Positions 624-4,854 of a stretch of 20,643 nt of DNA are shown in pieces (the stretch's first letter is position 1; every line of letters begins with the position of its first letter). Source of the stretch: a virus. A program made the translations under genes and the position numbers. The DNA is taken from positions 1 through 20,643 of the IMG/VR virus record IMGVR_UViG_3300045283_000038. One strand, written 5' to 3'. The notes under the pieces were generated by a model. That model did not search any database. It was given only the letters and a program-made list of their open reading frames with translations, and was not told where the DNA came from.

Positions 624-870
624 GTAGCGATGTGCAGTCATAAAAACATCGACCCACACGGCTCCACACTCCACACTTTCCAAGATTTCTGATGATTTAC
701 TCTGTTTTGGCATTGCCATCCTAAATCCGCGCATGAGACTATAGCTACGCAGTGAATGAGCAGGTCGATGCTCAGTCCAGCATCAGAGTCATCCGATAGA
801 GGTGACAGCCGAGCGCTAGAATTGTTGGATTGCCAAAGCTGGAGATCGACGCCAGCCACTGCAACGAACA

Positions 871-884
871 ATGTGCATGCACAT
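871..884. promoter_or_regulatory. 14-bp perfect palindrome, possible operator
   Basis: ATGTGCATGCACAT is a perfect palindrome about 95 bases upstream of the start of the 979 gene. Its length and symmetry fit a dimeric helix-turn-helix repressor site. There is only one copy visible and no supporting regulator gene in the window, so the role is a guess. Confidence 0.3.
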
Positions 885-978
885 AGAATCAACCAGCGCC
901 AAGACCGACAGACCCGCCAGGAATAACTGGGAAGGTAGTCAGCCCGCAGATGCGGAACCAATCTCAAGAGGACTGGAC

Positions 979-1203
979 ATGCAAAGCTGCGATATCCGCG
1001 AAAAGATACTGGGTCTGGTCATCTCTGCCTGGCAGCGAGAGGATTCGGCTGATAGCGTCACAGATCAGATCATGACCGTCATTGCTGAGCGCTCAGCTGG
1101 CTACACCGCCGTAGACATGACTACCGCTGCGGCTGATGGGTTTCGTGATGGGCAGGCATCGGTTGTTAGGCATGATCCGGCGCAATATACTTATACCGGT
1201 TGA
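979..1203 (+). CDS. Small hypothetical phage protein (74 aa)
   Basis: I do not recognise this family. The ATG at 979 was chosen because AAGAGGA (966-972) sits six bases upstream, an excellent ribosome site; upstream in-frame starts at 871 lack one. The product begins MQSCDIREKILGLVISAW and looks mostly helical and soluble, with acidic stretches and a C-terminal tail ending QYTYTG. No signal peptide or membrane segment is visible. It is the first rightward gene before the packaging genes, a position often held by late regulators or lysis-linked proteins, but it is much shorter than lambda Q. A promoter for the downstream leader RNA is embedded in its last 40 bases. Confidence 0.65.
   Translation: MQSCDIREKILGLVISAWQREDSADSVTDQIMTVIAERSAGYTAVDMTTAAADGFRDGQASVVRHDPAQYTYTG
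1163..1191 (+). promoter_or_regulatory. Strong sigma70-like promoter at the end of the 979 gene
   Basis: TTGTTA (1163-1168), an ideal 17-base spacer and TATACT (1186-1191; five of six to TATAAT). The predicted start is near 1198, just before the stop codon of the upstream gene. It reads into the structured non-coding stretch that ends at the terminator at 1446-1479, and beyond it into terS. The spacing and position make it a good late-promoter candidate. Confidence 0.5.
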
Positions 1204-1479
1204 TAGGGTGCGAATCGTCTTTATCACGCGTAACACCTGTCCCGTGCGGCGGAATGGTGGTTCGACTCCACCCAGGTGTTACTTGGATGCAGATGAATAC
1301 GCAGGCTGATGCGTAAAGTTGCGAAAATCTGTCTGGCATAAGCAGATATTCGTCCCCGTTGAGAATGCCGGAATCAGCACCGGCCATCTGCATCAACCGA
1401 ACGCATCTTCGCGTTATCTAGCTAGCTGCTAGCGGTGCAATACCGAAAGCCACCATCCTAAAAGCTTGGTGGCTTTTTT
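1198..1479 (+). ncRNA. Candidate structured leader or non-coding RNA upstream of terS
   Basis: About 280 bases without a gene, bounded by the promoter at 1163-1191 and an intrinsic terminator. Visible helices: (A) a 10-bp stem, GTAACACCTG at 1230-1239 with CAGGTGTTAC at 1273-1282, stacked directly on a T-arm-like hairpin (1256-1272: 5-bp stem, loop TTCGACT). (B) A 10-bp stem, GATGCAGATG at 1286-1295 with CATCTGCATC at 1385-1394. It closes a four-way junction of three hairpins: 1298-1315 (6 bp), 1321-1353 (5+5 bp with one mismatch) and 1367-1384 (5 bp). (C) Hairpin 1400-1415. (D) Hairpin 1421-1433. (E) The terminator. The pairings are read directly. That this is an RNA, and its role (late-operon leader, antiterminator, trans RNA or packaging element), is inference. 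Confidence 0.5.
1446..1479 (+). terminator. Rho-independent terminator before terS
   Basis: Nine-base-pair stem AAAGCCACC (1446-1454) with GGTGGCTTT (1468-1476), a 13-base loop, and a run of six T (1474-1479). It would stop transcripts from the 1163-1191 promoter before the packaging genes. Late expression would therefore need read-through or antitermination, or a separate promoter between 1480 and 1530, where I see no good one. Confidence 0.85.
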
Positions 1480-1505: not shown

Positions 1506-1523
1506 TGATTGAGCTTGATTGAG
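1506..1523 (+). repeat. Tandem TGATTGAG repeat just before terS
   Basis: TGATTGAG occurs at 1506-1513 and again at 1516-1523, a 10-base period that puts both copies on the same face of the helix. It lies within 25 bases of the terS start. It could be a protein-binding site (regulator or terminase), or simply leader sequence. Confidence 0.3.
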
Positions 1524-1530
1524 AGTGGGT

Positions 1531-1944
1531 ATGACTGATTTTAGCCAAGAGGTATTCGATGAAATCTGCGTATGGCTGGCTGTAGGCGAGTCCATGCGAA
1601 CCGTATGTGCTCGTCCTGGCATGCCGGATAAGTCAAACGTATTCCGCTGGATAGCTAATGATGCGAGTCTGCGCGACCAATACGCTCGCGCGAAGTACGA
1701 GGGATGTGAAGCGCTGGCTGAGGAGATGTTTGATATATCCGATGAAATTCCGCCAATGAAAGATGATGGCAGCATTGATAGTGGCTATATCAGTTATGCG
1801 AAACATCGGACTGATGTGCGCAAGTGGTACTTGTCGAAGATCGCGCCGAAGAAATATGGTGATAAGTTCACACAGGAACTTACTGGCGCTGATGGTGCTG
1901 CACTCCCTGCTATTCAAGTAGTATTCGGAAACAAGCCAGAGTAA
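1531..1944 (+). CDS. terS: Terminase small subunit (Sf6-type)
   Basis: 137 aa. The small subunit recognises the phage packaging site and hands the DNA concatemer to the large subunit. The N-terminal part (residues about 5-45) is a helix-turn-helix with the family pattern 'GESMRTVCARPGMPDKSNVFRW' (residues 19-40). A helical oligomerisation core follows, including DQYARAKYEG. The C-terminal part has the typical 'RTDVRKWYLSKIAPKKYGDK' block (residues 93-112) and 'TGADG'. This pattern is that of Sf6/P22-group small subunits, implying headful packaging. ATG 1531 was chosen over the in-frame TTG at 1519 because homologues start close to the HTH. It lies 52 bases after the terminator. Confidence 0.88.
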   Translation: MTDFSQEVFDEICVWLAVGESMRTVCARPGMPDKSNVFRWIANDASLRDQYARAKYEGCEALAEEMFDISDEIPPMKDDGSIDSGYISYAKHRTDVRKWYLSKIAPKKYGDKFTQELTGADGAALPAIQVVFGNKPE

Positions 1945-2763: not shown

Positions 2764-3958
2764 GCTTCCTTGGTGGGCTGAGAAACTGTTCGGGACCTAT
2801 CGCTACAAGGTCTTGTGGGGAGGCCGAGGCAGCGGGAAAAGCTATGCCGTGGCTGATGCGCTGCTCATCAAGGGCGCCAGCAAGCCAAGCCGTATACTGT
2901 GCGCTCGCGAGTTTCAGAACAGCCTTGGCGACTCTGTACACCATCTGCTGGCGCAAAGGATTAATGCCCTTGGCCTGTCGTCGTTCTATGAGGTTCAGAG
3001 AGAAACCATCCTCGGGCTGAACGGGACATCATTCATATTCAAGGGCGTCCGCAACAACGTCCAGTCGATCAAGTCCCTGTCTGGCATAACTGAGCTATGG
3101 CTTGAAGAGGCTCAGACTGTCAGCAAGGCTAGTTGGGATGTTCTAGTCCCGACCATCCGGGAGCCAGGCTCCGAGATCTACGTCACCTTCAACCCGATGC
3201 ATGAAAGCGACCCTACCTATCAGATGTTCATCGCCAACACTCCTGGCGATGATGCATACATCGAAAAGGTTAACTGGCGCGACAATCCTCATTGGCCTGC
3301 TGAGCTTGAGACAGAGCGTGTCAGGCTATTGCGCACCGATCCTGATATGTATTCGCATGTGTATGAAGGCGAGTGCATAAACAGATCTGTTTCCCAGATA
3401 TTTGCAAATAAGTACCGTGTCAGCGAATTCGAGCCTGGAGCCGATTGGGATGGTCCGTACTTCGGCCTGGATTTTGGATTCTCTCAAGACCCGACTGCCG
3501 GCGTGAAACTCTGGATCCGCGACAGGACGCTCTATGTTGAGCGAGAGGCTGGCGGAATTGAGATCGAGAACGATGACATGGCCGCACTGTTGATCGAGGA
3601 ACTGCCGGCTATTGAGAAGCATGTGGTGGTTGCCGACAATGCCAGGCCAGAGTTGATCAGCCACCTCAAGAAGCCAGATCCAACTGGCCGCCGCCCTAAC
3701 CTGCCGAAGATCGAGGCCTGCTCGAAAGGCAAGGGCAGCGTGGAGGACGGCATCTCATTCATGAAGACCTTCGACGAGATCGTGGTGCATTCCCGCTGCA
3801 AGGAGACCATCAAGGAGTTCCGCATGTACTCGTACAAGGTTGATCGGCTTTCCGGTGACGTGCTGACCGATATTGTCGACAAATGGAACCACTACATGGA
3901 CGCCATTCGCTATGCGCTGGAGAAGGTCAGGAAGAAATCTCAGTTCTTCGCTGGTTGA
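2753..3958 (+). CDS. terL: Terminase large subunit (ATPase/nuclease, Sf6-type)
   Basis: 401 aa, within the usual 400-470. It is the motor that translocates DNA into the prohead and cuts it. The N-terminal ATPase has Walker A GGRGSGKS (23-30), Walker B LWLEEA (115-120) with the catalytic Glu pair, and the coupling motif TFNP (145-148). The RNase H-like nuclease has its acidic residues at D240 (GLDFGFSQDPTA), D295 (VVADNARPE) and D383 (MDAIRYA). The sequence from 'RILCAREFQNS' through 'PTIREPGSEIYVTFNP' closely follows Sf6/P22-group large subunits, supporting headful packaging. The start at 2753 gives the family-typical beginning (hydrophobic/WAEKLF then YKVLWGG). It overlaps the HNH gene by 11 bases. 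Confidence 0.95.
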   Translation: MLVKLPWWAEKLFGTYRYKVLWGGRGSGKSYAVADALLIKGASKPSRILCAREFQNSLGDSVHHLLAQRINALGLSSFYEVQRETILGLNGTSFIFKGVRNNVQSIKSLSGITELWLEEAQTVSKASWDVLVPTIREPGSEIYVTFNPMHESDPTYQMFIANTPGDDAYIEKVNWRDNPHWPAELETERVRLLRTDPDMYSHVYEGECINRSVSQIFANKYRVSEFEPGADWDGPYFGLDFGFSQDPTAGVKLWIRDRTLYVEREAGGIEIENDDMAALLIEELPAIEKHVVVADNARPELISHLKKPDPTGRRPNLPKIEACSKGKGSVEDGISFMKTFDEIVVHSRCKETIKEFRMYSYKVDRLSGDVLTDIVDKWNHYMDAIRYALEKVRKKSQFFAG

Positions 3959-3983
3959 CATCCATTCTATAGCCGTGCAAGAT
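3955..3983 (+). promoter_or_regulatory. Possible weak promoter after terL
   Basis: A perfect -35 (TTGACA, 3955-3960) overlaps the terL stop codon, followed by a 17-base spacer and CAAGAT (3978-3983), which matches the -10 consensus at only three of six positions. It would serve the genes from 4009 onward. The consensus -35 may be chance. Confidence 0.25.
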
Positions 3984-4008
3984 CGCAAAATCAACCAAGG
4001 AGACCGCC

Positions 4009-4239
4009 ATGGCAATCACCACCAAGAAAGTGCTTAAGTGGATCTGGACCGAATTCAAGCGTGAGATGGTGATTCAGAAGCCAGATCCTGCCATGCTGGC
4101 GCGCATGGCAGAAATGAGAATGGTCAGCAAACCAGAATTAACCATCGGCCAGAAAGCAATCCGTGGCGGCAACAGAGCCGTAAAGATCTGGTTCTTTATG
4201 GGCATGGCTCTCATCGTCTGGGTGGCGATCCATATCTGA
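4009..4239 (+). CDS. Small tail-anchored membrane protein (76 aa)
   Basis: Family not recognised. It starts at ATG 4009 with AGGAG eight bases upstream. The first 55 residues are polar and basic (KKVLKWIWTEFKRE, then Met-rich MLARMAEMRM). Residues about 58-75 (VKIWFFMGMALIVWVAIH) form a single hydrophobic segment ending two residues before the C-terminus, so the protein is probably a C-tail-anchored inner-membrane protein with its N-terminus in the cytoplasm. It is too short and lacks the features of a typical holin or spanin, and its place between terL and structural genes is not a usual lysis position. A role in lysis timing or superinfection exclusion cannot be excluded. Confidence 0.7.
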   Translation: MAITTKKVLKWIWTEFKREMVIQKPDPAMLARMAEMRMVSKPELTIGQKAIRGGNRAVKIWFFMGMALIVWVAIHI

Positions 4240-4270
4240 TCGCATTTAAGCTGGCCAAGTGATACGATTC

Positions 4271-4290
4271 GCGCACTCATTGGAGTGCGC
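4271..4290 (+). promoter_or_regulatory. Hairpin covering the ribosome site of the 4296 gene
   Basis: GCGCACTC (4271-4278) pairs perfectly with GAGTGCGC (4283-4290) around a 4-base loop. The only Shine-Dalgarno sequence for the next gene (GGAG, 4282-4285) is in the loop edge and 3' arm, ahead of ATG 4296. In mRNA this 8-bp helix would hide the site and reduce translation unless opened. It has no T-tract, so it is not a terminator. Confidence 0.55.
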
Positions 4291-4295
4291 TAGTC

Positions 4296-4854
4296 ATGGC
4301 AGATATCCTCTACAAAGTTCTCTACGGCCCGCTGAAGAAACTGGTCGACATGCTCGACGGCACTTATGCCGAGCTTCAGATTGCACAGCCGCCTGCATTT
4401 TTGCTTTCTGGAACAACCAAACAAAGACTCAGGGTAGACGTCGGTGAGCCTGGATTTTTCCAGGGGCAGCAAGCCAGAACCTTCAGGGAATTCTCAATCA
4501 ATACCGGCTCGACCCTGACGCTGAAAGTCGTTGTGCCGCTGAATATCATTCTGCTTCAGCAGGGTGTAGACCTCGACAGTGGCAGCCTGAGAGTTACCAA
4601 TGCTGTCGGTGGAACTCCTGCTGGGTCATTTGCCGCAGTTCGTCATTACTGCTGGCGGATCCGTCTCTGGGTTCACGCCTCTAGATATTCATCGCGTGGT
4701 TTCGACGGCAACCGGAGTTCAAAGCACGGTCGGCAATATCGTTGGTGACGAGCGCGGCATTGGCGCAAATACTTATTACATCCTCTATGAGAACTTCGGG
4801 ACCGGTACTGCGACCGGAACGTTATTTCTTGTCTGGGAAGAACGAGTTCCCTAG
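4296..4854 (+). CDS. Structural/decoration-like protein, reading frame broken near 4630
   Basis: The product is split over two frames. The first starts at ATG 4296 (MADILYKVLYGPLKKLVDML) and reads sensibly to about GGTPAGSF (4629-4631). The second, one base ahead, continues sensibly as PQFVITAGGS...QSTVGNIVGDERG...FGTGTATGTLFLVWEERVP to a stop at 4854. The second frame opens only after a stop at 4588-4590, so a +1 shift (or a one-base insertion) must lie between 4591 and 4748, most likely about 4629-4640. The second half resembles beta-rich phage virion proteins with 'STVG..VGDERG...TATG'. Expected joined length is about 185 aa. Causes: sequencing error, true mutation, or an unrecognised programmed +1 shift. 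No classical shift signal is evident. Confidence 0.6.

Follow-up and report, generated by a model that had tools for sequence, protein, structure and literature searches.

Just upstream of the packaging genes of the virus studied here lies a strongly folded stretch, which raises the question of whether it is an RNA, and of what family and function, or a DNA feature of the packaging site. The window (i.e., the whole stretch of DNA analysed) is the complete virus record IMGVR_UViG_3300045283_000038, a linear fragment of 20,643 bases. It carries a small terminase gene (terS), an endonuclease VII-like gene, a large terminase gene (terL), and head genes; the endonuclease VII/HNH-like gene (positions 2029 to 2763) lies between the two terminase genes. 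A first-pass annotation of the letters alone had described strong helices upstream of terS, a promoter, a terminator, and no gene in between.

A module with two copies upstream of terS

The predicted fold of positions 1198 to 1485 had a free energy of -112 kcal/mol (z = -5.2), and none of 200 shuffled sequences folded equally well, which bears out the helices of the first-pass annotation. The terminator ending at position 1479 was likewise confirmed: a related locus, L084, retains it with a stem (AAAGCCCC/GGGGCTTT) that differs in sequence from that of the window and is still paired. A standard terminator scan misses the 1446-1479 site only because its loop is 13 nt long. No conserved protein was found in the folded stretch, in agreement with the earlier reading. 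The promoter proposed at position 1163 (TTGTTA-N17-TATACT) fared worse, as one match was found and 1.8 ± 1.7 were expected by chance. This candidate overlaps the 3' end of the upstream reading frame, which is conserved as a protein in L084, so that conservation of the promoter site is no proof of its function. The small reading frame at 871-1203 matched no PHROG family; a portion of the frame has a match in an early protein of Pseudomonas phage PS-1.

ARAGORN and Rfam detected no tRNA, tmRNA, or Rfam family in the window, and a permissive Rfam threshold yielded chance matches only. An identity as tRNA or tmRNA was rejected on these grounds, the likeness being limited to positions 1231-1281, where an acceptor-like stem bears a hairpin that resembles a T arm. 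Also rejected were C4 antisense RNA and the remaining Rfam phage RNAs (none in the window; tRNAs only in the P1 locus, L404). The Pas sRNAs of Escherichia coli prophages are different RNAs, judged by their description (PMC13192938).

A direct blastn search with the window stretch gave no match in phages and only short chance matches in plasmids, and loci gathered via TerS contained no RNA homologue. Loci gathered via TerL contained conserved pieces of the leader. Among them, L084 retains the closing strands, both hairpins, and the terminator, while the insert and the 5' hairpin have been swapped out; its terS shares only 29% identity with that of the window. One candidate family probe, AACACCTG..GGTTCGACTCCACC, was discarded after it matched an ordinary tRNA-Ile cluster. 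Two short patterns drawn from the conserved parts each matched at least 120 viral contigs, from which chance coding repeats were excluded. The common motif was GATGCAGATG-AAT-GCGC-AGGCTGAT-GCGC, a variable insert, and GCCGG-AGATCAGCA-CCGGC-CATCTGCATC.

The module core thus consists of a closing helix (strands S2 and S3), two hairpins flush with it that bear complementary loops, and a variable insert. A blastn search with the 87-base core (E ≤ 1) returned 188 phage records, mostly of Pseudomonas, Klebsiella, and Escherichia phages and including P1; because the insert varies, only 2 of the 188 covered most of the query. The full unit was present in all 15 phage records whose loci were searched with a covariance model. 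This model (R1) gave 172 matches, 155 of them distinct, across two sets of loci, with module sizes of 87 to 220 nt. No family in Rfam 15 corresponds to the module, and none is described in the searched literature, subscription papers lying mostly outside that search. We regard it as almost certain that the module is an RNA family absent from Rfam 15 and that it has the fold given here.

The window carries two copies, units A and B (Table 1). A homologous copy of unit A is present in L084 (positions 3184 to 3262). Unit A (745-866) probably marks the 5' end of the window RNA. It lies outside the positions given in the first-pass annotation, which also overlooked the T-arm-like hairpin at 1256-1272 and the complementarity of the two loops.

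Table 1. Positions of the module copies and neighboring features in the window
Feature	Position	Strand	Basis or remark
Unit A, first module copy	745-866	+	cmsearch with R1, 49 bits, E 1e-10; code GUCGAU x AUCGAC
Unit A closing strand S2, GCAGTG	749-754	+	Pairs with 857-862
Unit A hairpin 1	757-774	+	Loop 762-769, AGGTCGAT
Unit A hairpin 2	838-856	+	Loop 843-851, AGATCGACG, complementary to hairpin 1 loop
Unit A closing strand S3, CACTGC	857-862	+	Partner of S2, 749-754
Small reading frame between units A and B	871-1203	+	Protein-conserved, 59% over 150 aligned columns in L084
S1 strand, UCGUCUUUAUC	1215-1225	+	Alternative partner for unit B S2, in place of S3
Variable 5' hairpin, tRNA-like	1231-1281	+	Stem TAACACCTG/CAGGTGTTA stacked directly on T-arm-like hairpin
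T-arm-like hairpin, GGTGGTTCGACTCCACC	1256-1272	+	Within 5' hairpin 1231-1281
Unit B, second module copy	1286-1394	+	cmsearch with R1, 76 bits, E 6e-18; code GCUGAU x AUCAGC
Unit B closing strand S2, GATGCAGATG	1286-1295	+	Pairs with 1385-1394
Unit B hairpin 1	1298-1315	+	Loop 1303-1310, AGGCTGAT
Unit B variable insert between hairpins	1316-1366	+	Sequence differs in L084
Unit B hairpin 2	1367-1384	+	Loop 1372-1379, AATCAGCA, complementary to hairpin 1 loop
Unit B closing strand S3, CATCTGCATC	1385-1394	+	Partner of S2, 1286-1295
Intrinsic terminator	1446-1479	+	AAAGCCACC-13 nt-GGTGGCTTT+T6; kept in L084, stem altered
Terminase small subunit gene	1519-1944	+	phrog_1482, E 3.5e-40; downstream of unit B

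Covariation, loop codes, and variable parts

In an alignment of 26 sequences, 95% of the cells were paired, and both sides had changed in 11 of 25 pairs. The covariation score was 0.241, compared with 0.083 for shuffled alignments and at most 0.093 when the partners were slid. Both the closing helix and the hairpins covaried. The closing-helix strands of most Pseudomonas phages are GATGCAGATG/CATCTGCATC; those of P1 are GTTGTGATGA/TCATCACAAC. The first-pass annotation had named a lack of compensatory changes in homologues as grounds for abandoning its candidate RNA; such changes were present, and the claim was not refuted.

Covariation extended to the pairing between the two loops. Most members carry the code GCUGAU x AUCAGC, while unit A of the window and copies in L084, L272, L284, and L413 carry GUCGAU x AUCGAC, which amounts to two compensatory changes in the loop-loop helix. 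Cognate loop duplexes were predicted at -5.9 to -6.5 kcal/mol and noncognate ones at -0.4 to -1.2 kcal/mol. The GUCGAU copy lies upstream of a common-code copy in the window, L084, L272, and L284. The GUCGA/UCGAC code also occurs in DS8 and ENT47670 but with another hairpin stem, which indicates repeated origin or movement of the double change. A descriptor that left the loop sequence free found 97 sites in the collected loci and none in shuffled sequence; in this search for further codes, there were two main codes only. Most loci were gathered with patterns fixing the common loop, GCUGA, which in part explains why other codes are rarely seen. A third code, GGUGAU x AUCACC, was seen in a single case (L106, 7673 to 7776), beside a common-code unit.

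A further strand, S1, lies upstream of many units and is complementary to S2. Of 114 nonredundant units, 48 showed significant complementarity, compared with 5.7 expected at the threshold used; in the majority of units, S1 was absent or went unrecognised. It has two main types, UCGUCUUUAUC(GG) and CUGCAUCGG, and changes in S1 are matched by changes in S2; the UCGUCUUUAUC motif occurs upstream of 18 of the 114 units. In enteric phages, an upstream CACAAC acts as S1. S1 and S3 are mutually exclusive partners of S2, and the two resulting folds were no more than about 10 kcal/mol apart in 12 of 13 cases (the kissing helix uncounted); only P1 (L404), for which another S1 had been chosen automatically, departed from this. 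In the window, the two pairing states of S2 were nearly equal (-97.5 and -98.4).

The inserts were highly variable: 162 inserts fell into 91 sequence clusters. A given insert recurred in units whose closing strands or loop codes differed (L272 compared with L177, L322, and L384) and in the differing units of P1 and mEp460, which points to the exchange of inserts. The insert of the first P1 unit is nearly identical to that of mEp460, a lambdoid phage. T-loop hairpins were present in 9 of the 91 insert clusters, where 0.3 would be expected, and were not seen on the opposite strand; T-arm hairpins were present upstream of 9 of the 114 units (0.15 expected). As a class, inserts were slightly more stable than their shuffles; a mean z of only -0.44 makes "folded cargo" a doubtful description of many of them. 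Long hairpins with a tRNA-like layout, a T-arm being nested in an extended acceptor-like stem, were observed in L087 (1130 to 1260) and L088 (1405 to 1530).

Another phage sRNA, Proteo-phage-1 (RF03044), lies on the same strand 60 to 190 nt upstream of the unit at 12 loci (L240, L287, L234, L246, L303, L305, L296, L310, L327, L264, L356, and L405), which were selected partly for that feature. It is a different RNA, which there stands where the 5' hairpin would otherwise be.

Genomic setting and the nature of the element

A P1-type unit was matched in 851 of 5,426 complete E. coli genomes (about one in six), and R1 had matches in 23 of the 149 genomes examined from a single Pseudomonas genus group. 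The surroundings of the units were diverse. P1 has two (L404, 2995 to 3131 and 3424 to 3527), located behind tRNA-Asn and tRNA-Thr and between tRNA genes and tciA. In ZC03 the unit is within a tRNA array, in HC6 and ZCKp20p it adjoins a tRNA, and in UPM2146 about 2 kb separate it from a tRNA cluster downstream. Kintu has a unit followed by two tRNAs and an endolysin gene. Two phages show a late-operon arrangement: the order is Q gene, promoter-like site, unit, terminator, and lysis genes in PAJU2 and Q, unit, tRNA-Phe, and holin in phiEt88. The units of mEp460, CSP3, and PS-1 are in early operons. Of the 155 distinct units, 44 are followed by a terminator within 130 nt, and in L272 and L284 a promoter-like site immediately precedes unit A. 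PHROG profiles of the flanking genes were mixed (integrase, repressor, Q, holin, spanin, and HNH), with no single partner gene.

A complete array was observed in L284 (reverse complement, 3430 to 4500), which comprises a promoter-like site, unit A, tRNA-Asp, a boxA-like AACGCTCTTTAAA, a tRNA-like hairpin, S1, unit B, and a terminator; it ends with a long open frame where terS would be. The boxA-like sequence also follows unit A in L413. A general association with boxA was rejected, since it occurs near only 2 of 114 units. In Klebsiella phage ZCKp20p (L442, 3114 to 4244), a TnpB-family gene is close to the unit and the tRNA.

Three observations bear on whether the element acts as RNA. Among the inner pairs, there were 62 G-U cells and 8 A-C cells. 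An adverse count over all pairs (G-U/A-C, 71:96) was set aside as misleading, because the A-C cells came from the outer three pairs, which are not conserved. Units and tRNA genes agreed in strand without exception: 39 tRNA genes lay no more than 1.5 kb from a unit (26 of the 155 units involved), several of them only 4 to 11 nt away. The orientation relative to flanking long open reading frames (48:29) is weak evidence, because antisense frames are common in GC-rich DNA. Together with the covariation, the excess of G-U over A-C and the strand agreement with tRNA genes indicate that the module is a transcribed RNA and not a packaging-site DNA feature. The compensatory changes, the pairing bias, the strand agreement, and the lack of an Rfam match thereby give strong support to the new phage RNA proposed in the first-pass annotation.

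A packaging site, as the same annotation had also considered, or a recombination site or origin that only resembles an RNA, is very improbable. Such a DNA element would agree with the location of a unit directly upstream of terS in the window. It would account neither for the 62 G-U cells against 8 A-C cells nor for the match in strand, and in most of the named phages examined the unit is distant from the terminase. Packaging in particular is disfavoured because the element, found also in tRNA clusters and early operons, is tied neither to terS nor to late leaders.

A candidate kissing-loop clamp and its alternatives

The best overall explanation, to which we assign a probability of about 0.45, is an untranslated RNA with two modules, each an intramolecular clamp, and with ordered folding of S1, S2, and S3. 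The two loops would kiss side by side within one molecule, and this clamp would let an exchangeable, sometimes tRNA-like insert fold as an isolated, nuclease-resistant domain in a long untranslated transcript. Distinct loop codes would keep tandem copies from cross-pairing. S2 may pair first with nascent S1 and later switch to S3, so that folding would be ordered or coupled to processing. The window RNA would start near position 745 and mostly end at 1479, with read-through supplying terS. The clamp mechanism itself falls a little below an even chance.

Whether the loops pair within or between molecules is not distinguished by the sequence, which fits both. In an RNA-only oligomer, loops would kiss between molecules, in an assembly like those of GOLLD and ROOL, possibly around the variable insert. 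The purine-purine-N6-A layout of the hairpin 2 loop is also that of stable intermolecular kissing complexes, the HIV DIS being one example. GOLLD and ROOL are structured RNAs of phages and prophages, often found beside tRNA islands, and contain kissing loops and a variable linker able to accommodate a tRNA (PMC12286853), a setting that the module shares. They are several hundred nucleotides long, compared with 87 to 220 nt for the module, which is a two-hairpin clamp with tandem copies of distinct loop codes, and their Rfam models matched neither the window nor 28 related loci. Both hairpins also rise from one junction, making intramolecular docking geometrically simple, and we rate an oligomer as improbable.

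The most serious competitor to the clamp is processive antitermination, in which the nascent module would bind RNA polymerase, alone or with host factors, and carry it past terminators and Rho, in the mode of HK022 put or the eps-associated RNA. Much of the setting is consistent with it: units in lambdoid late-operon leaders after Q (PAJU2 and phiEt88), in early operons (mEp460, PS-1, and CSP3), in tRNA operons (P1 and ZC03), and before terS in the window, together with the 44 nearby terminators, the start of unit A at promoter-like sites, and the boxA-like sequence behind unit A in L284 and L413. Many units, however, come after rather than before tRNAs, boxA is as rare as noted above, and the differing codes of tandem copies would have no obvious role. 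The likeness to put is also incomplete. Both are phage leader RNAs with two hairpins, found in operon leaders and in two copies per phage, but put lacks a variable insert enclosed by a closing helix, and the module differs in size and architecture from the put criterion of about 70 nt with two stem-loops. PutL is a 73-nt, two-stem V shape for which kissing loops are not described (PMC9378689). R1 found no match (E ≤ 1) in the whole HK022 genome, contrary to an identity with put, and none in the lambda genome; by this measure, the module is a member of neither the put nor the lambda 6S family. It could act like either of them though a different RNA. On balance, we consider antitermination unlikely.

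The first-pass annotation had also likened the layout to lambda pR'-6S-tR'. This comparison finds support in PAJU2 and phiEt88, which share with lambda a promoter, a short untranslated leader, and a terminator between Q and the lysis genes (in phiEt88, Q-unit-tRNA-holin). It does not extend to P1, ZC03, or PS-1. The module is not tied to terS or late leaders, being present in tRNA clusters and early operons as well; in the window, the unit precedes terS and no Q is visible. A related alternative is a trans-acting leader RNA comparable to lambda 6S or prophage sRNAs, short, abundant, and terminator-ended, whose insert would base-pair with host or phage mRNAs. The promoter-leader-terminator layout of PAJU2 (and, less surely, of the window) and the hypervariable insert agree with this idea. 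We give it little weight, as many units are within tRNA clusters without a terminator of their own, and no seed common to the 91 insert clusters is visible.

The phi29 pRNA has an end-closing helix and two complementary hairpin loops, and its gene is near the packaging genes. Unlike it, the module has no Rfam match, occurs as two copies with different codes, and is found in phages with ordinary terminases, far from packaging genes. This setting across phages argues against a role in the packaging motor, with loops paired between molecules, like that of the pRNA.

The intramolecular clamp is thus our preferred reading. It is possible, at rather less than even odds, that phages of many Gram-negative bacteria share modular cassettes that combine a kissing-loop clamp, exchangeable and partly tRNA-like inserts, distinct tandem codes, and an S1/S2/S3 switch. 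In E. coli genomes, in P1, and in numerous phages of Pseudomonas, Klebsiella, and Escherichia, the module lies in gaps that mostly lack annotation. The compensatory loop-loop changes imply that the module does something for these phages, and it may account for some of the untranslated RNA that late leaders and tRNA clusters of phages contain and that has lacked an explanation.
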